Source: Bacteroidota bacterium (GTDB lineage: Bacteria > Bacteroidota > Bacteroidia > J057 > JAJTIE01). From it: a DNA stretch of 58,097 bases. Below are positions 3,889-54,092 of the stretch, piece by piece. The stretch lies in assembly GCA_019638695.1 (NCBI GenBank), contig JAHBTG010000010.1:1-58097 (forward strand), written 5' to 3'. Below the pieces are notes generated by a model that saw nothing but the letters and a program-made list of their open reading frames with translations, searched no databases and had not been told where the DNA came from. Position numbers and translations under genes: made by a program. Numbering within the stretch: the first letter of the stretch is position 1; the number at the start of each line of letters is the position of its first letter.

Positions 3889-5832
3889 ATGCAATGGATA
3901 TATAGCCAATGCCGCCTGGCGGTATGCGTGTGCTGTACGCTGCTGGGCATTTCCCCTTTGCTTGCCCAGAAGCCCCCGCAGATACTCTGGCAACGCTGCG
4001 TGGGGGGTAATGCCTTTGACAATGCCACCTGTGTGGATGTGCTGCCCGATAGCAGCTACCTCATTGCGGGCACTACCTTCAGCTATGATGTACCCCGCCT
4101 CCATAAAAGCACCGGGGACGCAGATGTGCTGCTCATCAAATGCAGCCCGGTGGGGGAGATCACCTGGCTGGCTAATTATGGCGGCAAGTTTACGGAAGAA
4201 GCCTTTGACGTGCGTCAGCTGCCCGACGGCGGCTTTGTCGTTTGCGGCCTGACGGATAGCCCCGAATACTCCGGAGGGGAGAATGACCTGTATGTATTGC
4301 GGGTAGATGCCCTGGGACGCCAGCGCTGGGCCCGTGGGTATGGCGGACAAGGCAACGAGCGGGGCAATGCCCTGGTGCTGGCGCCGGATGGCGGCTTCCT
4401 GGTGGTGGGCGAAACCGGCTCCAATACCCGCGATGTTTCGCGTAATCACGGTGGCCTCGATGGCTGGGTGGTTAAGCTGGATGCCCAGGGTAAACTCCTG
4501 TGGGAAAAGAGTATCGGCGGTACCGGTAATGACAAGCTCAAGACCGTCCTGCTCACCCGTGACGGACACTACCTGATGGCAGGTCCTTCTGACAGCAATA
4601 ATGGAGATCTGCCCGGCAATTATGGCAAGACCGATGTCATGGTGGTCAAGATGACGCTCAAAGGCGAGATCGTGTGGGTGAAACACCTGGGCGGCAATTC
4701 TTTTGACGATGCCTTTGGCCTGATAGAACTGCCCGACGGAGATCTCATCATGGTGGGCACTACCTACTCCAGTGCCGGTCAGCTCAAGCGCACCTATGGC
4801 GAGAACGATGTTTTCCTTGCCCGCCTGGATAAGGATGCTAACCTCAAATGGGAAAAAACCTATGGCGGGGCAGAAGATGACGGCGGTAACTCCGCCTGCC
4901 TTACCCCTGCCGGACAGTTGCTTATAGCCGGTACCAGCCGCAGCAAGGATGGCCTTATTCAGGAAGGATATGGCCGCTACGATGCCTGGCTGCTCCTCAC
5001 AGACCTGGAGGGCAATGTGGTCTGGAGCCAGAACTATGGCGGTTCCAAGGACGAACAGTTTTACCGTGCTGTGCCGCTGCAGAACGGTAGCATCTTTGCC
5101 CTGGGATTCAGTTTCAGCGAAGATTTTGACCTTACGTATACGCCGCAGAATGGCGGCAATGACGCCTGGCTGGTGCACCTGGGCTGGAAACCCACCCCTA
5201 AAGAAACGGTGCCCACTACCCTGGTAGGATATGTGAAGGATGCCACCACCGGTGCTATCATTCCTGCGGAGGTGTCCCTTATCCGTAACAGCACTGCACA
5301 GGTGCTGGCCAAAGCCCAGTCGGATACCACCGTGGGCACTTACTGGATGATGTTCCGGGATAGTACGGACCTGAGCCTGGGGGTGCTGGTGCCCGGCTAT
5401 TTCTTTTACAGCGAGGACCTGGTGATCCCTCCTCACCAAAGGCATGGAGAGGTGCGTTTCGATATCGAACTGCGGCCTATTGTGGCCGGGGGCGTGCAGA
5501 ACATGCGCCATATCCAGTTTGCCACAGGCAAGTCCATTATCCAGTCGGAGTCTTACCCCGAGCTGGACAGGCTGGTGCGGTTTATGGAAATGAACCCCAC
5601 CACCGTTATCCAGATCAACGGTCATACGGACGATACCGGGGATCCTGAGGGTAAACTTACTCTCAGCGCTCACCGTGCGGCGGCCGTGCGGCGTTACCTG
5701 GAGTCCAAGGGTATAGATAAAGAGCGGCTCAGGGCCAAGGGCTTTGGCATGGATCAACCCCTGGTGCCCAATACCTCCGAGAAGAACCGCCAGAAGAACC
5801 GCAGGGTGGAGTTTGAGGTCATCCGGAAATAG
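3889..5832 (+). CDS. Secreted beta-propeller/OmpA envelope protein
   Basis: About 647 residues from the ATG at 3889; an upstream in-frame ATG at 3871 would add six residues before the signal peptide. A signal sequence ends near LLAQ. It is followed by about seven units of roughly 55-60 residues, each with a Trp-x-(3-5)-Gly-Gly strand, a DGG or DG turn and a GxDAW-like end, as expected of a seven-bladed propeller. A short carboxypeptidase-regulatory-like beta sandwich (LVGYVKDATTG onwards) precedes a C-terminal OmpA domain. The OmpA domain carries NGHTDDTG and SAHRAAAVRRYL, holding the Asp and Arg that bind diaminopimelate in peptidoglycan. It is probably an outer-membrane or periplasmic protein tethered to the cell wall. 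dprA follows after 21 bases. Confidence 0.85.
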   Translation: MQWIYSQCRLAVCVCCTLLGISPLLAQKPPQILWQRCVGGNAFDNATCVDVLPDSSYLIAGTTFSYDVPRLHKSTGDADVLLIKCSPVGEITWLANYGGKFTEEAFDVRQLPDGGFVVCGLTDSPEYSGGENDLYVLRVDALGRQRWARGYGGQGNERGNALVLAPDGGFLVVGETGSNTRDVSRNHGGLDGWVVKLDAQGKLLWEKSIGGTGNDKLKTVLLTRDGHYLMAGPSDSNNGDLPGNYGKTDVMVVKMTLKGEIVWVKHLGGNSFDDAFGLIELPDGDLIMVGTTYSSAGQLKRTYGENDVFLARLDKDANLKWEKTYGGAEDDGGNSACLTPAGQLLIAGTSRSKDGLIQEGYGRYDAWLLLTDLEGNVVWSQNYGGSKDEQFYRAVPLQNGSIFALGFSFSEDFDLTYTPQNGGNDAWLVHLGWKPTPKETVPTTLVGYVKDATTGAIIPAEVSLIRNSTAQVLAKAQSDTTVGTYWMMFRDSTDLSLGVLVPGYFFYSEDLVIPPHQRHGEVRFDIELRPIVAGGVQNMRHIQFATGKSIIQSESYPELDRLVRFMEMNPTTVIQINGHTDDTGDPEGKLTLSAHRAAAVRRYLESKGIDKERLRAKGFGMDQPLVPNTSEKNRQKNRRVEFEVIRK

Positions 5833-5853
5833 GCAACCGTCTTCTCCCAGCCT

Positions 5854-6975
5854 ATGACATTGCAGGACAAACACTATCTACTGGCGTTGCAGTTGGTGCC
5901 GGGCGTGGGGCCTGTCATTGCCAAGAACCTGGTAGCCTATGCCGGCAATCCCCGGGCCGTGTTTGAAAAACCCAGGGGGCAGTTGTTGCGCATCCCGGAT
6001 GTGGGGCCCAGGCTGGCCGAGGCGCTCAGGGCAGATCTTACTCCCTATCTTAAGCGGGCGGAAGAGAACATAGCGTTCTCTGAAAAATACGGTATTCGTC
6101 TGCTGGATTATAGCGAGCAGGCTTACCCGGAGGCACTCAAGGCTATCTATAATGCCCCGCTCGTGCTGTTCGTCAAAGGCCCGCTGGCGTTGAATGAAGT
6201 CCCGGCCGTGGCCATCGTCGGCACCCGCAATGTTACGGATTATGGCCGGACACAGGCCGCCCGGTTTGCAGCACACTTTGCCGCGTGCGGGCTCAATGTG
6301 GTCAGCGGGCTGGCCTATGGGGTGGATATTGCGGCGCACAAAGCGGTGACAGAGGCTGGTGGGATCACCACCGGGGTGCTGGCGCACGGCCTGGACAGGA
6401 TATATCCGGCTGCGCACAGATCTGCTGCGGAGCGCATGCTGGCCCGCGGCGCACTGGTGACGGAATACCTCACCGGCACCCAACCGGATGCCTCCCATTT
6501 CCCTGCCCGCAACCGCATCCTCAGCGGGTTATGCCAGGGTGTAGTGGTGATTGAGGCGGCAGAAAAGGGCGGGGCGCTCATTACGGCGCGCACAGGCTTT
6601 GAGCAGAACCGTTCGATCTATGCTTTACCCGGGCGGGTGGGGGACCTGTATTCGGCCGGTTGCAACCGCCTGGTCAGTGAGAACATTGCCCGGCTGGTGA
6701 CTTCCCCCGAGGAAGTACTTGCAGACCTGGGGTTAGGAGATCTCCCGGCTCAGGCCAAGACCAAAGGGCCCGCTACTCGCTTCAAACCCGTGGCGGAACA
6801 CCTGAGTGCCGAGGAACAACAGGTGCTCAATTTGCTGGAAACCGGAGATATGGCATTAGAATCCCTGGTGCTCAAAACCCGCATCCCAGCGCATAAGCTG
6901 GTGACCCTGCTCCTTACGCTGGAATTCCGGGGGTATGTGGCGCAGAAGCCCGGCCAGGTATTTAAAAGGTTATAG
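5854..6975 (+). CDS. dprA: DNA-processing protein DprA (Smf)
   Basis: A 373-residue DprA/Smf protein, which in transformable bacteria protects incoming single-stranded DNA and loads RecA on it. The N-terminus has a helix-hairpin-helix region (LVPGVGPVIAKNL, then IPDVGPRLAEAL). The Rossmann core follows with AIVGTRNVTDYGR, SGLAYGVDIAAHKA, SHFPARNRILSGL and GALITARTGFEQNR, all diagnostic for the family. The last 70 residues fit the small winged-helix domain found in many DprA proteins. It starts 21 bases after the OmpA-type gene on the same strand and may share its transcript. An inverted repeat that could act as a terminator lies directly after the stop. The ATG is unambiguous. Confidence 0.96.
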   Translation: MTLQDKHYLLALQLVPGVGPVIAKNLVAYAGNPRAVFEKPRGQLLRIPDVGPRLAEALRADLTPYLKRAEENIAFSEKYGIRLLDYSEQAYPEALKAIYNAPLVLFVKGPLALNEVPAVAIVGTRNVTDYGRTQAARFAAHFAACGLNVVSGLAYGVDIAAHKAVTEAGGITTGVLAHGLDRIYPAAHRSAAERMLARGALVTEYLTGTQPDASHFPARNRILSGLCQGVVVIEAAEKGGALITARTGFEQNRSIYALPGRVGDLYSAGCNRLVSENIARLVTSPEEVLADLGLGDLPAQAKTKGPATRFKPVAEHLSAEEQQVLNLLETGDMALESLVLKTRIPAHKLVTLLLTLEFRGYVAQKPGQVFKRL

Positions 6976-7045
6976 TGTTTTTGTTTTTTTAACTTAATTG
7001 ATAGTGATTTTGAACTAAAAACACTTTTTCAAGAAGAAAGTGTTT
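6974..7045 (+). terminator. Paired competing stem-loops after dprA
   Basis: Three segments can pair in two ways. AGTGTTTTT (6974-6982) is complementary to AAAAACACT (7017-7025), which is followed by a short T run. The overlapping AAACACTTT (7019-7027) is complementary to AAAGTGTTT (7037-7045) with a nine-base loop. The first pairing could terminate dprA transcripts. The second excludes the first. The stems are A/T-rich and therefore weak, and the role is inferred. Confidence 0.4.
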
Positions 7046-7121
7046 ACCATTCCGGCTTTTGGAGATTAAAACAGTAAAGGCGCCTTGAGTATATCCCTTT
7101 ACACCTTAACCTTCTCAAGTC

Positions 7122-7754
7122 ATGAAAAAGCTGCTGATCTCCGTATTGCTGCACTGGTGTTTTCAGAATACCGCCCTCGCCCAGTTTTGCGGATCCAATG
7201 GGTATGGCCTACGCATAGGCGCACCGGGCGCACCCACGGGCTTCAGTTTTACCCGGGTAATGGATACCCGAAATTCCTTTGAATGGATGGTGGGCTACAA
7301 TGGCCTGTTCAACCGGGTGGAGAAGACCACTGTGACCATGGTCAATGAGCAGGGCCAGCCAGAAACCCAGACCTTTCTGCCGGCCGGTTATCGTAATGCC
7401 CTGCTGGTGGGCGGCACCTTCCAGGTGGGTCTGCTGGCCGGTAACCCGCGAGGTAACGGGCAGAGCCTGTACCTGAACCTGGGACTGCGGGGACGGGTGC
7501 ACCTGGATCGCCCTGTTATGAACTTTGATAGCCGGCAAGGGTTCTGGATCACTCCAGAATTGGCTGTGGGGCCCGGCTTCCAGGTGGGTTTGGGGCCTAA
7601 TATGGAGCTGTATGCCGATGCCCAGGCTGTGTATTACAACCCCGAGGATGCTGTTGCCACTACCGGAGAAGCTACTAATTATACCCTGGGAGTAGAACTG
7701 GGCGGCGGCCTGCGCTATCGTATCTATGGGTGCCGCTATAAGCGTCGCCGCTAG
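7122..7754 (+). CDS. Probable outer-membrane beta-barrel protein
   Basis: A 210-residue protein with a signal peptide (KKLLISVLLHWCF to LAQ near residue 21), then alternating hydrophobic/polar strands with Gly and aromatic residues, such as SFEWMVGYNGLF, SLYLNLGLRGRV, ELAVGPGFQVGLG and NYTLGVELGGGLRYRIYG. This looks like a small eight-stranded outer-membrane barrel. The C-terminus ends in a basic tail (CRYKRRR) instead of the usual terminal aromatic residue. Its stop codon overlaps the stop of the convergent membrane protein by four bases (CTAG). No specific function is visible. Confidence 0.7.
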   Translation: MKKLLISVLLHWCFQNTALAQFCGSNGYGLRIGAPGAPTGFSFTRVMDTRNSFEWMVGYNGLFNRVEKTTVTMVNEQGQPETQTFLPAGYRNALLVGGTFQVGLLAGNPRGNGQSLYLNLGLRGRVHLDRPVMNFDSRQGFWITPELAVGPGFQVGLGPNMELYADAQAVYYNPEDAVATTGEATNYTLGVELGGGLRYRIYGCRYKRRR

Positions 7755-47473: not shown

Positions 47474-48142
47474 ATGCGTATGCGTGGTATCTGTTTCTTC
47501 TTATGCTGCCTGTTCCCCGCTTTGGTTGGGGCACAACCCCAGTCGACCGCCAGCTTCAAGGTGGCTAAGCTGAAGTATGACGGCGGCGGAGACTGGTATG
47601 CCAACTCCACCAGCCTGCCCAATCTCTTCCGGTATGTGCGGGAAAATTCCCGCACCAACATCTTCCTGGGCGAAGAGGTGGTGGAACCGGGCAGCGCCCA
47701 GATCTTCCAGTATCCCCTGGTGTATATGACCGGGCACGGAAACATTGTGTTCGGCCAGGCAGAAGCGCAGAATATGCGCCGCTACCTGGAAGCCGGCGGC
47801 TTTTTCTTTATTGACGATAACTATGGACTGAATGTCTATATCATCCGCGAAATGAAAAAGGTGTTTCCTGAGCATGAGTTTGTGGAGCTGCCCTTTACGC
47901 ACCCCATCTACCACCAGATGTACTATTTTGCAGAAGGTATGCCCAAGATACACGAGCATGATGGCAAACCTGCCCAGTTGTTCGGTATCGTTCACCAGGG
48001 GAGACTGGTGTGTGTGCTCACTTATGAGAGCGACCTGGGTGATGGATGGGAAGACCGGTCCGTACACAATAACCCCGAAGAGGTGCGCCTCAAGGCATTT
48101 CAGATGGGTGCCAATATCCTCTTTTACGTGCTGCACAACTAG
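47474..48142 (+). CDS. DUF4159 secreted protein
   Basis: A 222-residue protein with a signal peptide ending near LVGAQ, or a start six bases later at 47480. FKVAKLKYDGGGDWYANSTSLPNLFRYVRE, YPLVYMTGHGNIVF, EAGGFFFIDDNYGLN and FTHPIYHQMYYF match DUF4159, whose fold resembles a class I glutamine-amidotransferase-like or ThuA-like Rossmann domain. Function is unknown. It lies between the hydroxylase and the M16-like pair on the same strand; spacing is 43 and 61 bases. Confidence 0.9.
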   Translation: MRMRGICFFLCCLFPALVGAQPQSTASFKVAKLKYDGGGDWYANSTSLPNLFRYVRENSRTNIFLGEEVVEPGSAQIFQYPLVYMTGHGNIVFGQAEAQNMRRYLEAGGFFFIDDNYGLNVYIIREMKKVFPEHEFVELPFTHPIYHQMYYFAEGMPKIHEHDGKPAQLFGIVHQGRLVCVLTYESDLGDGWEDRSVHNNPEEVRLKAFQMGANILFYVLHN

Positions 48143-48203: not shown

Positions 48204-50144
48204 GTGAAGCGATTGCTGCATTTGGGTGTGCTGTTAGGTATGTGGCTGCCGGGGCTTGGATTGCCCGCGGTTTGTGCTCAGTCAGACAGCACCCACCTGT
48301 ATCTGCTGCGCGATAAGCTGCCTACCAATTACTGGTATAGCCGCCTGCCCAATGGCCTGCACTTGCTGGTCATAGAAGATAGCCGCGTGCCCCTGGTTAC
48401 CCTCTCGGTGTCTGTGCCGGGAGGACTCTCCGGCCAGTATACCGGCTATGCCGGGGTACCCAGCTTGCTGGCGCATCTGCTGGTCATGCACAGCGCCGCC
48501 TATGTAGACGGCTATAATTACCGCCGGGCCTTGCAGGAAGCCACTTTCTACCCCAGGACTGAGGTGCAGTTGCATGGCATGCTGGTCCAGGGCAACTGCC
48601 TGCAGGAGAACCTGCCCCGTGCCCTGAAGGTCTTGTATAACACACTGAACCAGCCTGCCTGGGATACCCTCTATGTAGGCAAGGCTATGGAGCAGGTAAA
48701 ACAACAGATCGAGGGTGAGGCCCTGCAGCCGGCCCGTTACCAGCAGCAGGCATTGCTGCAGATATTGTGGGGCAGGCAATACCGGTTCCGGGAGCAATTC
48801 CCGGAGTTCTATAAGTTAAGAACTTTAAGAACTACGGCTCTGGCCGATTACCGGATGGAGCACTTCCGGCCGGAACAGTCCCTGCTGGTACTCGAAGGGA
48901 ATATCACTCCCCAGGAGGCCAGGCTGGCGGTAGAGGAGGTGTGGGGGCAATGGGCGTCTGCCACAAATGCCCGCAACTATAAGCCGGTCACCGTGCCGCT
49001 TACCCAGGATACGCTGGTTGTCCAGGTATCTGAGCAGCAGGAGACCCCGCTGGTGACGGTAGCCTGGCAACTACCCTCTGTGCAACAGGATAGCCGCCTC
49101 TATTACGCCGCGTTGTTGCTGGAGGAGCTGCTGCGCCAGCGCAATGCCTTTACCTTGCCCCTTACCCGGTCAGAGCTGGCGCACAGTCTTGTGCCCTCCT
49201 ATGAGCCCTCGCGTATACAGGGTAGTCTGCGCATCAGTATGCTGGTAAAAGTGGCGCGGGTGCCCCAGCTGATCACCCTGGTACAGGAGCAAGTAGCCCA
49301 GGGGGCTGAGCGACCGCTGTTTTCACAGAAAGAGCTGGACCGCGCACGCCAGCAACTGGAGATCCAGCTCCTGTATACCAAGGATGCTCCCTTGCAATGG
49401 GCCGGCTGGCTGGCGGCTTACTGGGGCTTGCACCAGCGTATCTATAGTCCTATTCAGCTGATGGACAGCCTGCGTGCAGTAAAGCCTGCCGATATGCAGC
49501 GCCTGTTCCGCGACTACTTACACCAGAGACCTATGGTGACCGCTATCCTGGGCAATAGCACTCATCTGGGCCAGGATTTCCTGGTGGAATATATTGCCGA
49601 CGGGTATGTGCGGCGGCAGAAGCCGGCAACTACTGTAGCAGCCACTACCGGCAGCCGGGATTCCCTGCTGGCAGGTACTGTACCGGTCAGGGATACCCTT
49701 CGGGTCAGCAAGGATACTACCCTGGCTGCTGCTGCGGTGACCGCGCCCGGTGAAGTACCGCCTTATGCCCGGGTGGCGGCCAGTAAGGATGCTATTCCCA
49801 CCCGGGAGGAGATCACGGCCTATACTATTTACTATGACTACGGCAAGGTATTGCCCGATAGCAGTGCAGAGGATATTATCAGCAGGGTGGTCCTGTTCCT
49901 GAACCTGAACCCTGCCAGGAACATTGTCATACGGGCGCATACGGATAGTCCCGGCAGCCTGCAGGCCAACCTCCAAATATCGGAGCGCAGGGCTACCCTG
50001 CTCAAGCAGTATATTGTCAATACCTACCGCATTATGCCTCAGCGCATAGCGATCAGGCCCATGGGAGAAGCGCAGCCTGTGGTAAAGGAAGTGGACGAAA
50101 CCAGCCGCAGGTTAAACCGAAGAGTAGAGTTTGAGGTAAAATGA
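48204..50144 (+). CDS. Inactive M16-like protein fused to an OmpA domain
   Basis: A 646-residue protein with GTG start (48204), chosen because it gives a clean signal peptide ending at VCAQ. Residues ~40-470 match the M16 (pitrilysin/insulinase) fold: LPNGLHLLVIEDSRVPLVTLSVSVPGG, GYAGVPSLLAHLLV and the later YRMEHFRPEQSLLVLEGNITPQEA. The zinc motif HxxEH reads HLLVM (91-95), so the catalytic Glu and second His are lost. A low-complexity linker (~480-535) leads to an OmpA-like domain (540-646) with AHTD (Asp581) and SERRATLLKQY, the usual peptidoglycan-binding residues. The next gene overlaps by four bases. Confidence 0.87.
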   Translation: MKRLLHLGVLLGMWLPGLGLPAVCAQSDSTHLYLLRDKLPTNYWYSRLPNGLHLLVIEDSRVPLVTLSVSVPGGLSGQYTGYAGVPSLLAHLLVMHSAAYVDGYNYRRALQEATFYPRTEVQLHGMLVQGNCLQENLPRALKVLYNTLNQPAWDTLYVGKAMEQVKQQIEGEALQPARYQQQALLQILWGRQYRFREQFPEFYKLRTLRTTALADYRMEHFRPEQSLLVLEGNITPQEARLAVEEVWGQWASATNARNYKPVTVPLTQDTLVVQVSEQQETPLVTVAWQLPSVQQDSRLYYAALLLEELLRQRNAFTLPLTRSELAHSLVPSYEPSRIQGSLRISMLVKVARVPQLITLVQEQVAQGAERPLFSQKELDRARQQLEIQLLYTKDAPLQWAGWLAAYWGLHQRIYSPIQLMDSLRAVKPADMQRLFRDYLHQRPMVTAILGNSTHLGQDFLVEYIADGYVRRQKPATTVAATTGSRDSLLAGTVPVRDTLRVSKDTTLAAAAVTAPGEVPPYARVAASKDAIPTREEITAYTIYYDYGKVLPDSSAEDIISRVVLFLNLNPARNIVIRAHTDSPGSLQANLQISERRATLLKQYIVNTYRIMPQRIAIRPMGEAQPVVKEVDETSRRLNRRVEFEVK

Positions 50145-51493
50145 ACAACCGGTTTCGTTATCTGTGCCTGATCTGCTGCGTGAGCTGTTTGCTGCCGACG
50201 GGTTGCCTGCGCCTGCCGGTGAAGCGCAGTACCACCCCTGTCGTGGTCTCCAGTCCACTGGCGCAGCAGCTGCAGGAACTGCCGGAGACGGTGGTACCGG
50301 TGCTGGTCAAACAACATGGCGAAGATATGGTGACCGTGCAGGTGGTATTGCGAGGAGGCCCCACCACTGCCAGTCCGCTGCCCGGACTGGAGGCGCTTAC
50401 GCTGGAAGCTATGCTGCATTGCGGGAGTGGGGGAGTGGCGCCGGCACAATGGCGGCAGCAACTGGAACAATATGGCATTACGCTTTCCACTGCTGTGGGG
50501 CCGGATTATGCGCTGCTGCACCTGAACTGCCCCGAACGTTACTGGGTGCGTGGATGGGAGCTGATGCTGGAAGCCCTGTTTTTTCCGGATTTTGACAAAG
50601 AGGCTTACCAGGCTTTCAGGGACAATTACGCGGCGGCCCTGCAAAGCCGGCAGCAGGACCCCGTATTCAAGGCTTACCAGGCCGGGCTAACGGCGCTTTT
50701 TGGCAAAGATCACCTGTATGCCATCTGGCCAGAAGGCAGCTATGCCGCCATTGCCGCTATGCCGCTGGATAGTGTGGTCAACTGTCATGGCAGGCTGGTC
50801 AGCCAGCGGCGCCTGCAGCTGGTGGTTACCGGGGATGTGAACCCTGAACTGGTGCATAGCCGTGTGGAGGAGGTCTTTACGGACCTGAAGCCCGGCATCA
50901 GATGGCCCCAGCCTGCCGAACTGGCATGGGAAGAGCAGCGTGTGGTGATAGATGAAACGGTGCCCAAGTCGCTTTGTACGGTCACGGCTTTTTTTCCTGC
51001 GCCTTTGCCCAAAGCCACGGATGCTGCCGATTACCTGCTGGCGCTGGAGGCATTGTCCATGCGGATGCAGGAAGACTTGTGCCACCAGCGATACCTGGCC
51101 TGCGAGACGTTCGCAGAGTGGGTGCCCTGGCAGGTGCCTTTTGCAAGAGTGGGCTTTCAGAGCATGCATACCTATGCTGCCGTGAAGGCATTGATTGCCT
51201 TGCTCAGGAAGGTCCGGCTGGAGGGCTTTACCGAGCAGGAGATAGCCACCGCTCATATGCATTATCTGCGGCAGCTATATGCGCAGGTGCAGACCAGTCA
51301 TGGCATGGCTTCCTGGCTCACTGCACACTACGCCCGGGGCAGCCTGGAGCGTATACTGGCTATGCAGGACCGGCTGGATCTGGTTACACCTGAGAGCGCG
51401 CTCAAGGCCCTGAACAAATATTCATCGCGCATCGTATGGCATTATTACGGGCCACCCAAACAGGTAAATGCCAAAGCCTTCAAAATGGATTAA
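50141..51493 (+). CDS. Inactive M16-like lipoprotein
   Basis: A 450-residue lipoprotein (lipobox LPTG-Cys22). The body is again M16-like: MVTVQVVLRGGPTTASPLPGLEALTLEAMLHCGSGG at the N-terminal strand-helix unit, later GKDHLYAIWPEGSYAAIAAM and RLQLVVTGDVNPELVHSRVEEVF. The HxxEH site reads LTLEA (86-90): the Glu is kept but both zinc-binding His are gone. Its start overlaps the previous gene's stop (ATGA), giving a translationally coupled pair. M16B enzymes normally work as one active and one inactive subunit; here both look inactive. Confidence 0.85.
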   Translation: MNNRFRYLCLICCVSCLLPTGCLRLPVKRSTTPVVVSSPLAQQLQELPETVVPVLVKQHGEDMVTVQVVLRGGPTTASPLPGLEALTLEAMLHCGSGGVAPAQWRQQLEQYGITLSTAVGPDYALLHLNCPERYWVRGWELMLEALFFPDFDKEAYQAFRDNYAAALQSRQQDPVFKAYQAGLTALFGKDHLYAIWPEGSYAAIAAMPLDSVVNCHGRLVSQRRLQLVVTGDVNPELVHSRVEEVFTDLKPGIRWPQPAELAWEEQRVVIDETVPKSLCTVTAFFPAPLPKATDAADYLLALEALSMRMQEDLCHQRYLACETFAEWVPWQVPFARVGFQSMHTYAAVKALIALLRKVRLEGFTEQEIATAHMHYLRQLYAQVQTSHGMASWLTAHYARGSLERILAMQDRLDLVTPESALKALNKYSSRIVWHYYGPPKQVNAKAFKMD

Positions 51494-51658
51494 TTGGTAA
51501 ATAAGTTATTATATATCATTATTTATGTATGATTTTATCTAGGTATAATTATTAGAGTACCTACGCATATAGGTTCATTTTGATTGTCATTTAACAATAA
51601 TAGTTGATGGTTATATTGCCGAAAATTAGATTTGATATTCATAAAACCATTCGGACTA
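51494..51658. other. A/T-rich gap before the T9SS cargo gene
   Basis: This 165-base gap is noticeably richer in A/T than its surroundings. It carries the promoter of the downstream gene at its end and no coding potential. Confidence 0.6.
51604..51634 (+). promoter_or_regulatory. Promoter of the T9SS cargo gene
   Basis: TTG (51604-51606), 20-base spacer and TAGATTTG (51627-51634), a full match to the Bacteroidota consensus. The ATG lies 24 bases downstream. Confidence 0.72.
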
Positions 51659-52507
51659 ATGAATACGAATCTGAAATACTTGGCTCTGTGCCTGATATTA
51701 TTAGCAGGCAGTGGTGAGATAAAGGCACAGCTCGTTCGGGGAAGCAGTACCAGTACAGCAGCTTCTCCTCCTGTACCTATAGTAGGGCTTCCTACCTGTA
51801 TCGGTTGTAGCATGAGTAATGCACCGAGAGCTATAGATGCCAGCGGCTCCACTTTTGCTACTATGAATATGGGACTTTCTGTTGCCGGGTGGTATCGGTT
51901 TTGTATAAAATTCCCGGCGGCTGCGCCCGAAGGCGCTCGTTTTACATTGGTATTGGCCAACGGTGCCGGCCTGTTGGATCTGGGATTGTTGGGCGCCGGT
52001 GTGGGTGTAGATATGCGTCATAATGGAAGCTCTACCGGGCAAGGCACCGGCAGTGGTAACCTGCTGCATCTGAGTCTTTTACCTTGTACATGCAACACCT
52101 ATTCCACCTTGCAGTGGTACGCCTGCTGTGGTGCAGATGAAGTTTGTATTACGTTGAATGGCGGATTATTGGGTGTGGGCATGAACCTTAGGGTATACGA
52201 TGCTTATTACGAGCAGGACGTGGTGCTGGACCTTGGTTCGGGTTCGGGTAATTATGTGGGTCCTGTGCTGGACCCGTTAGCTGCTGTGTATCCCAATCCT
52301 TTTCAGCATACACTCCAGGTGAATGTTACGCGAGATGACAGCTATGCCCTGGAGTTATATGACCTGGATGGCAGGATATGCCATTATGAGCAGATGTCTG
52401 CCAGCACCCAGAATATGAATCTGCAAGACCTGAAGCCCGGGTTGTATATGCTGCGGGTAATTGGTTCTCAGGGTGCAGAAACACATAAAGTAGTTAAACT
52501 GGACTGA
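51659..52507 (+). CDS. Type IX secretion system cargo protein
   Basis: About 282 residues from the ATG at 51659. A signal peptide ends near GEIKAQ. The middle has several Cys (LPTCIGCSMS, LPCTCNTYSTLQWYACCGADEVC) and Gly/Leu-rich strands that I do not recognise. The last ~75 residues are a type A C-terminal sorting domain: DPLAAVYPNPFQHTLQVNV, YALELYDLDGRICHYEQM and GLYMLRVIGS...VVKLD. This domain directs export through the type IX system and cell-surface attachment. Base composition is more A/T-rich than the neighbours, consistent with a fast-evolving accessory gene. Confidence 0.88.
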   Translation: MNTNLKYLALCLILLAGSGEIKAQLVRGSSTSTAASPPVPIVGLPTCIGCSMSNAPRAIDASGSTFATMNMGLSVAGWYRFCIKFPAAAPEGARFTLVLANGAGLLDLGLLGAGVGVDMRHNGSSTGQGTGSGNLLHLSLLPCTCNTYSTLQWYACCGADEVCITLNGGLLGVGMNLRVYDAYYEQDVVLDLGSGSGNYVGPVLDPLAAVYPNPFQHTLQVNVTRDDSYALELYDLDGRICHYEQMSASTQNMNLQDLKPGLYMLRVIGSQGAETHKVVKLD

Positions 52508-52666: not shown

Positions 52667-54052
52667 TCAGGTATAACCCAGTATCTTGAGTACCTGCTTG
52701 CTGGTTTGTTCCTCATTAAAGATGTCATACTCCAGCTGGCCTTCCTCGTTGCGGTGAATGAGCACGTGGCGCGGCGTAGGAATGAGGCAATGATGGATCC
52801 CACCAAAACCGCTCAGGCTTTCCTGGTAGGCTCCTGTATGGAAGAACCCGATGTATTGCACTTTGCGGGTCTTGGGCAGGAATACCATGTTGATATGCGC
52901 ATCGTCTGAGTAATAATCCTGGCTGTCGCAGGTGATACCTCCCAGCACCACGCGTTCATAGCCGGCGTCCCAGTTGTTCACGGGGAGCAGCACATACTTT
53001 TGCCCCAGCGCCCAGATGTCCGGCAGGTTGGTCATCAGGCTGCCGTTGAGCATCAGCCATTTCTCCCGGTCGTTCTGCTGTTTGCGGCCGATGACGCGGA
53101 AGAGCACACCCTGGCTTTCGGCCACCGTGTAGCTGCCAAACTCCGTGATGATATTGGGGTGGGGCACCTCATACTCATCGCAGATGGCTTTGATACGACC
53201 TATGATCTCATCTATCATATACTGGTAGTCGTACTCAAAGAACAGGCTGTTGCGATAGGGCAGGCCTCCGCCGATATCCAGCGTATCCAGATCCGGGTTC
53301 ACCTTGCGAAAGCGGCAATAGAGGTTGACCACCTTCTCTAGTTCGCTCCAGAAATAAGGCGTGTCGCGGATACCGCTCTGCGTGAAGAAGTGCAGGAGCG
53401 TTACCTTGAAGTTGGGATAGTTGGCTATCTTGTCCGTATAAAAGCTGATGATATCATCCCCGCGAATGCCCAGCCGGCTGGTATACAGGTGGTAATCGGG
53501 CTGTTCCTCCACCGCCACACGGATGCCTATTTTCTGGGGGTCGTCCAGCTCATCATCATAAAAGTAGAATTCTTCCTTGTTGTCCAGCACGGGGATCACG
53601 TTAGTGAACCCGTCATGAATGAGATCGACCACATTTTGTTTGTACTGCGTGGTCTTGAACCCGTTGCAGATGATCAGCACATCTTTCTTTACCCATCCTT
53701 TCTTTTCCAGCGCTTCTATGAGCGGAATGTCAAAGGCGGAACTCGTTTCCAGGTGAATGTCGTTCTTCAGCGCTTCCTTGAGCACATAGGAGAAGTGGCT
53801 GCTTTTAGTGCAGTAGCAATAGGTATAGGAGCCCTGGAAGTTATGTTTTCGCATCGCTTCCCTGAACAATCGCTTGGCTTTCTGAATCTGTTCAGAAATG
53901 GCCGGGAGATAGGTGAAGCGCAGGGGAGTGCCATACGTTTCGACCAGTTCCATCATACTGATATCGTGAAAGTAGAGCTCATCTTCTTTCACACGAAACC
54001 CATCCTGTGGAAAATCCACACTCTGGTCAATAAATTCGGCGTAATTTTGCAT
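52667..54052 (-). CDS. speA: Biosynthetic arginine decarboxylase
   Basis: About 461 residues from the ATG at 54052 (a GTG nine bases upstream is possible). A fold III pyridoxal-phosphate decarboxylase with PLP Lys83 in YCYCTKSSHF and ETSSAFDIPLI, then LLHFFTQSGIRDT, LDIGGGLPYRNS (Gly-rich phosphate loop) and ITEFGSYTVAESQ. The final LSGFGGIHHCLIPTPRHVLI is typical of the Bacteroidota branch of arginine decarboxylases, which makes agmatine for polyamines. It is shorter than the enteric SpeA. Its promoter -7 box lies at 54085-54092. Confidence 0.88.
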   Translation of the reverse strand: MQNYAEFIDQSVDFPQDGFRVKEDELYFHDISMMELVETYGTPLRFTYLPAISEQIQKAKRLFREAMRKHNFQGSYTYCYCTKSSHFSYVLKEALKNDIHLETSSAFDIPLIEALEKKGWVKKDVLIICNGFKTTQYKQNVVDLIHDGFTNVIPVLDNKEEFYFYDDELDDPQKIGIRVAVEEQPDYHLYTSRLGIRGDDIISFYTDKIANYPNFKVTLLHFFTQSGIRDTPYFWSELEKVVNLYCRFRKVNPDLDTLDIGGGLPYRNSLFFEYDYQYMIDEIIGRIKAICDEYEVPHPNIITEFGSYTVAESQGVLFRVIGRKQQNDREKWLMLNGSLMTNLPDIWALGQKYVLLPVNNWDAGYERVVLGGITCDSQDYYSDDAHINMVFLPKTRKVQYIGFFHTGAYQESLSGFGGIHHCLIPTPRHVLIHRNEEGQLEYDIFNEEQTSKQVLKILGYT

Positions 54053-54092
54053 TACAGGCACAATGCGATGGGCTTAAATTTTCGCAAATATA
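54042..54092. promoter_or_regulatory. Overlapping divergent -7 boxes of speA and the barrel gene
   Basis: TATATTTG on the minus strand (54085-54092) points to speA and TAATTTTG on the plus strand (54042-54049) points to the outer-membrane gene. Each lies inside, or just past, the first codons of the opposite gene, so the two transcripts would overlap at their 5' ends. Neither has a clear TTG partner. Confidence 0.4.

Follow-up and report, generated by a model that had tools for sequence, protein, structure and literature searches.

What does a pair of M16 proteins do when neither partner carries the zinc motif of the family? The question is raised by two genes, called A and B here, in a stretch of 58,097 nucleotides from contig JAHBTG010000010.1 of a Bacteroidota bacterium; "the window" refers to this whole stretch. 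The features of the locus, in window coordinates or in residues of A, are as follows.

47474-48142, + strand: DUF4159 protein with a signal peptide (Pfam)
48204..50144, + strand: gene A (646 aa, GTG start), a secreted protein of M16B fold that ends in an OmpA domain
A, about residues 1-25: signal peptide
A, about residues 40-470: M16 halves
48462..48476, + strand: site of the lost zinc motif of A, with SLLAH at residues 87-91 versus HLYEH in active orthologs (alignment of 29 orthologs)
A, residues 477-527: disordered linker (low-confidence region of the AlphaFold2 model)
49806..50141, + strand: OmpA-like domain of A, about residues 535-646 (PF00691; alignment to the OprF OmpA domain, 5u1h)
50141..51493, + strand: gene B (450 aa), a probable lipoprotein of M16B fold
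50141..50144, + strand: ATGA overlap, the start of B with the stop of A (read from the sequence)
51077..51100, + strand: CHQRYLAC, the loop of B that formerly held the R/Y pair (27 B orthologs aligned)

The coordinates, the ATGA overlap and the domain content of both proteins agree with a preliminary description of the locus, as judged from the sequence and from Pfam. The overlap recurs in genome G001, where the A and B open reading frames share base L014:1498. The DUF4159 gene shares its strand with A, stops about 60 bases before A begins, and may belong to the same operon; it is not conserved beside A in the relatives examined. Directly downstream of B (51632-52507, + strand) lies a gene whose product bears a C-terminal sorting domain of type IX secretion. 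At 52667-54061 (- strand), a 464-aa PLP-dependent decarboxylase partially matches the biosynthetic arginine decarboxylase SpeA, and is much shorter than SpeA. The relatives share no neighbouring gene that could serve as a functional clue: the neighbours are the DUF4159 gene in the window, an M61 peptidase in G001, LptF/LptG in G020, and a methyltransferase in G019. In the neighbourhoods compared, no conserved third gene pointing to a complex scaffolded by A/B was found.

The preliminary description had also considered that relatives might encode an active third M16 subunit in the same operon; no such gene lies beside A/B in the loci of the window's order. The window's genome has other M16 genes as well, away from A/B, and three of these carry HxxEH. 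A further family of the order, at L043:1318-3441, L047:1363-3447, L048:1333-3489, and L050:1366-3486, has an inactive M16 subunit of about 700 aa encoded after a canonical HFFEH subunit. These inactive subunits are extended at the C-terminus by about 250 residues for which Pfam offers no explanation.

Pfam searches with A returned Peptidase_M16_C (2.4e-17) and OmpA (PF00691, 1.2e-11), while the N-terminal M16 domain was barely recognised (0.018). The search with B returned Peptidase_M16_C (PF05193) at 3.5e-9. AlphaFold2 models, calculated with the alignments of orthologs as input, had the M16B fold for both A (mean pLDDT 82.5) and B (pLDDT 87.5). In Foldseek, the best match of the A model was 3ami, an M16B structure (TMt 0.87); the B model matched 3ami (TMt 0.83), 3gwb, and 3amj_B. 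The assignment of both proteins to M16 is thus no coincidental match.

HxxEH is absent from A, from B, and from all seven members of the window's order that contain A/B, so the description of both subunits as catalytically dead by sequence is borne out. The letters given for the two motifs, HLLVM in A and LTLEA in B, need correction: the stretch in A is SLLAH at residues 87-91, and the equivalent in B, inferred from alignments, is approximately ALTLE at residues 85-89. The zinc-ligand columns of A read S, A, H, and Q. H91, with which the quoted HLLVM begins, aligns with the second histidine of HxxEH and is the sole ligand left; the third ligand, a downstream glutamate, is glutamine in the window's A and within the order is kept only in G001. 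In B, the former R/Y loop has changed as well. In B proteins partnered with an active A outside the order, this loop reads R-T-K-R-N-L-S-Y or R-T-N-N-G-L-S-Y, and the R/Y pair is important for substrate binding in M16 enzymes (PMC12731061). The window's B has a cysteine in both the R and the Y column, and the loops in the order read CHQRYLAC, CQQRFLSC, CLRKNLTC, RLNRNLDV, and similar.

A and B might still be an enzyme of a non-canonical kind, whose metal site has moved or whose activity is new. Migrated residues can restore a site in pseudoenzymes, and B keeps E84 and D122 in 7/7 members of the order. However, the B proteins of active pairs conserve E84 as well and, in most cases, D122, which marks both residues as ancestral. 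The M16 part of A has no His or Cys conserved among the order members, and, judged by conservation only, no alternative conserved cluster of His, Cys, Asp, or Glu that could form the displaced zinc site for which the preliminary description had allowed. We regard a non-canonical enzyme as very improbable.

Among 22 genomes of the window's order, A and B occur in the same seven (G000, G001, G004, G005, G019, G020, and G021). A and B are neighbours in G000, G001, and G021, with the ATGA overlap in the first two; in the other four genomes they are on separate contigs, and the pair persists with its genes on different contigs in families f4, f6, and f7. A profile search of the class (395 genomes), in which a wide score gap separated the A/B orthologs from other M16 proteins, found A in 25 genomes and B in 26. 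B was present in 25/25 genomes with A, in keeping with the earlier proposal that the two belong together; the surplus B (G350) lies at a contig end in a genome that is 78% complete.

The orthologs reveal what the pair once was. All 20 A orthologs that keep HxxEH show H, E, H, E at the zinc ligands, with HLYEH or HLFEH as the motif and the Glu further along. In the window's order these columns read SAHQ, QAHE, CSSQ, FENL, YEKS, ADKQ, and ADKQ; the zinc site is lost in 7/7 A proteins and the R/Y pair in 7/7 B proteins. In orthologous pairs outside the order, within the same class, A is usually of the active type; two exceptions are known, G037 (L128) and the additional copy of Mucilaginibacter sp. 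E4BP6 (L214). Five loci read from other classes of the phylum have HLYEH or HFYEH in A and the R/Y loop in B; the active state is therefore ancestral. From these ortholog comparisons, A/B is a decayed form of an ordinary active/inactive M16B pair, with A derived from the active subunit, and is not an architecture without relatives; the earlier remark that no described system of this kind was known is to that extent not supported.

The states of the two sites are associated. Scored for the state of A and the R/Y state of B, 35 pairs comprised 25 active/intact, one active/lost (G046), one dead/intact (L214), and eight dead/lost. The R/Y pair was intact in 25/26 pairs with an active-type A and lost in 8/9 with a dead A (Fisher 3e-6, a value calculated over rows that are not independent and uncorrected for phylogeny). 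Both halves of the composite active site have decayed, yet the co-occurrence of A and B is kept, even where the genes are unlinked.

Three loci outside the order deserve description. L112 (G046) is in a mixed state: its A and B, at 4142-6190 and 6265-7614, combine HLYEH and an OmpA domain in A with a B that is without the R/Y pair. L128 (G037, 5663-7411 and 4286-5650) encodes a doubly dead pair from a different family, in which the tail of A is degenerate and OmpA-like; G037 also encodes, at L117, another B whose R/Y loop is intact. L214 is in a Mucilaginibacter genome that also has an active-type pair (L210); its A has FLSQ in the ligand columns and its B keeps the R/Y pair. This is apparently an independent and younger loss.

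In the phylogeny, the A clade was separated from other M16 proteins at 100/100, and the motif was lost at least twice, in the order with G037 and in the Mucilaginibacter copy. The grouping of the seven dead A proteins of the order into one clade was neither supported nor rejected (p-AU 0.47), and the same holds for a single loss within the order. The branches leading to dead A proteins are several-fold longer than those of the active-type A proteins. For the dead pairs of the congeners G004 and G005, dN/dS was 0.11 for A and 0.09 for B, compared to 0.03-0.07 for active pairs; these figures are rough, as dS is high. The dead A/B proteins are under purifying selection, and are constrained less than the active ones.

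The longer branches, together with a dN/dS of 0.09-0.11 versus 0.03-0.07 in active pairs, are what one would expect if A/B were a relaxed remnant, drifting to loss and having no present function. In contrast, full-length frames persist across five of the order's families, whose proteins share about 20% identity, dN/dS stays at about 0.1, co-occurrence is strict even when the genes are unlinked, and the D/R pair of the OmpA domain is kept in 4/7 order members. A remnant on its way to loss seems very improbable.

The C-terminal part of A agrees with the earlier description of a peptidoglycan-type OmpA domain that follows a flexible linker. D581 and R596 of the window's A align with Asp271 and Arg286 of Acinetobacter baumannii OmpA, which contact diaminopimelate (PMC5974059). 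The pair is present in the window, G001, G004, G005, and G046; G019, G020, and G021, three of the order's seven, have an OmpA domain that is degenerate or without this pair. In several active families, A has a tail of about 100 residues whose similarity to OmpA is weak at best. The OmpA fusion is not tied to the catalytic loss, because the A of G046 has both HLYEH and the OmpA domain and active families have these tails. B was described as carrying a lipobox; it is a probable lipoprotein, but the motif, LPTGC (C22), is imperfect in having Pro at -3. Better lipoboxes are found in the B orthologs of G001 (LLVVGC) and G020 (SICGC), and none is obvious in G019 or G021. From these motifs, A should be anchored to peptidoglycan through its OmpA domain and a lipid should keep B in the outer membrane. 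Anchoring to wall and membrane may not be general, because the OmpA domain is degenerate or without the D/R pair in 3/7 order members and a good lipobox occurs in some only.

The reading we favour, with a probability of roughly 0.55, is that A/B is an obligate M16B-type heterodimer that has lost proteolysis, has kept its fold and partnership, and acts as a scaffold between the outer membrane and the wall. A physical heterodimer of A and B, its location in the envelope, and the role as scaffold are the most likely interpretation of the sequences. Both halves of the composite active site have been lost, the zinc ligands in A and the R/Y pair in B. A would be exported and tethered to peptidoglycan by the OmpA domain through a flexible linker of about 50 residues, and B would be lipid-anchored in the outer membrane. 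The clam-shell would thereby be placed between outer membrane and wall, where it would most likely work as a scaffold or assembly platform. The proposed role is modelled on core I/II of the mitochondrial bc1 complex, likewise derived from a processing peptidase.

The preliminary description had instead raised the possibility of a clam-shell chamber that binds peptides or unfolded outer-membrane proteins without cutting them, which would make it a trap or holdase. The modelled M16B fold with both halves kept, the putative envelope location, and an ancestry among peptidases that enclose their substrates are compatible with such a chamber. However, the R/Y pair, which is important for substrate binding (PMC12731061), is gone together with the zinc site in 7/7 order members. 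The scaffold is likelier than a simple peptide-binding chamber, because the residues that bind substrate in working enzymes are lost; the proposal of a chamber is weakened, and we consider it doubtful.

By analogy, the chances are about even that the route from processing peptidase to bc1 core protein was taken again in this bacterial lineage, with a jointly decayed M16B heterodimer becoming an obligate non-catalytic clam-shell between the outer membrane and peptidoglycan. In support of the scaffold reading we count the concerted loss, strict co-occurrence, purifying selection, models with the M16B fold, and active ancestry; against it, an OmpA domain that is degenerate or without the D/R pair in 3/7 order members, a good lipobox in some members only, and the absence of a conserved third gene. 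A/B offers a case from bacteria, open to comparative tests, in which an enzyme of two subunits has become a pseudoenzyme of two subunits, and for which the active-type sister pairs in culturable Mucilaginibacter and Pedobacter can serve as controls. It also suggests that cutting is not required for every role of M16 pairs in Bacteroidota, and raises the question of what envelope role the active sister pairs have.

Our search of open-licence papers found no description of a bacterial M16 pair that is OmpA-fused or doubly dead. The bacterial M16B heterodimers (the Sphingomonas A1 pair, 3ami/3amj; TTHA1264/TTHA1265, 7v4y; YmfF/YmfH, 9a7y) resemble A/B in the folds of both chains and in their two-gene operon, the window's A descending from the active subunit type and B from the inactive type. 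These heterodimers have a zinc-binding subunit, whereas in the window both proteins lack HxxEH and B lacks the R/Y pair; further differences are the OmpA domain of A and the probable lipid anchor of B. The likeness to OmpA_C/Pal peptidoglycan-binding domains consists of the PF00691 match and the D581/R596 pair, which matches the diaminopimelate contacts of A. baumannii OmpA. In A this domain is joined to an M16 clam-shell, whereas elsewhere it is found with a beta-barrel or in a lipoprotein.

The orthologous pairs of Mucilaginibacter and Pedobacter (L210-L214) have the same gene order and belong to the same family, with E-values for B down to 3e-81. In these pairs A is of the active type (HLFEH or HLYEH), except in L214, and has no OmpA tail.

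Foldseek with the A and B models also matched bc1 core chains. The bc1 core proteins can lack both HxxEH and the R/Y pair, and a structural role is assumed for them (PMC12731061; PMC11266112). Like A/B, core I/II is a heterodimer of M16B subunits that arose from a processing peptidase, with HxxEH lost or altered and no R/Y pair (PMC12731061; PMC11266112); the comparison concerns only how the two would work. Core I/II is mitochondrial, is part of a respiratory complex, and has a glycine-rich loop in core II, whereas the window's pair carries predicted envelope anchors. The loss in the bacterial A/B pair was separate from that in the bc1 core proteins, and the two are apparently convergent.
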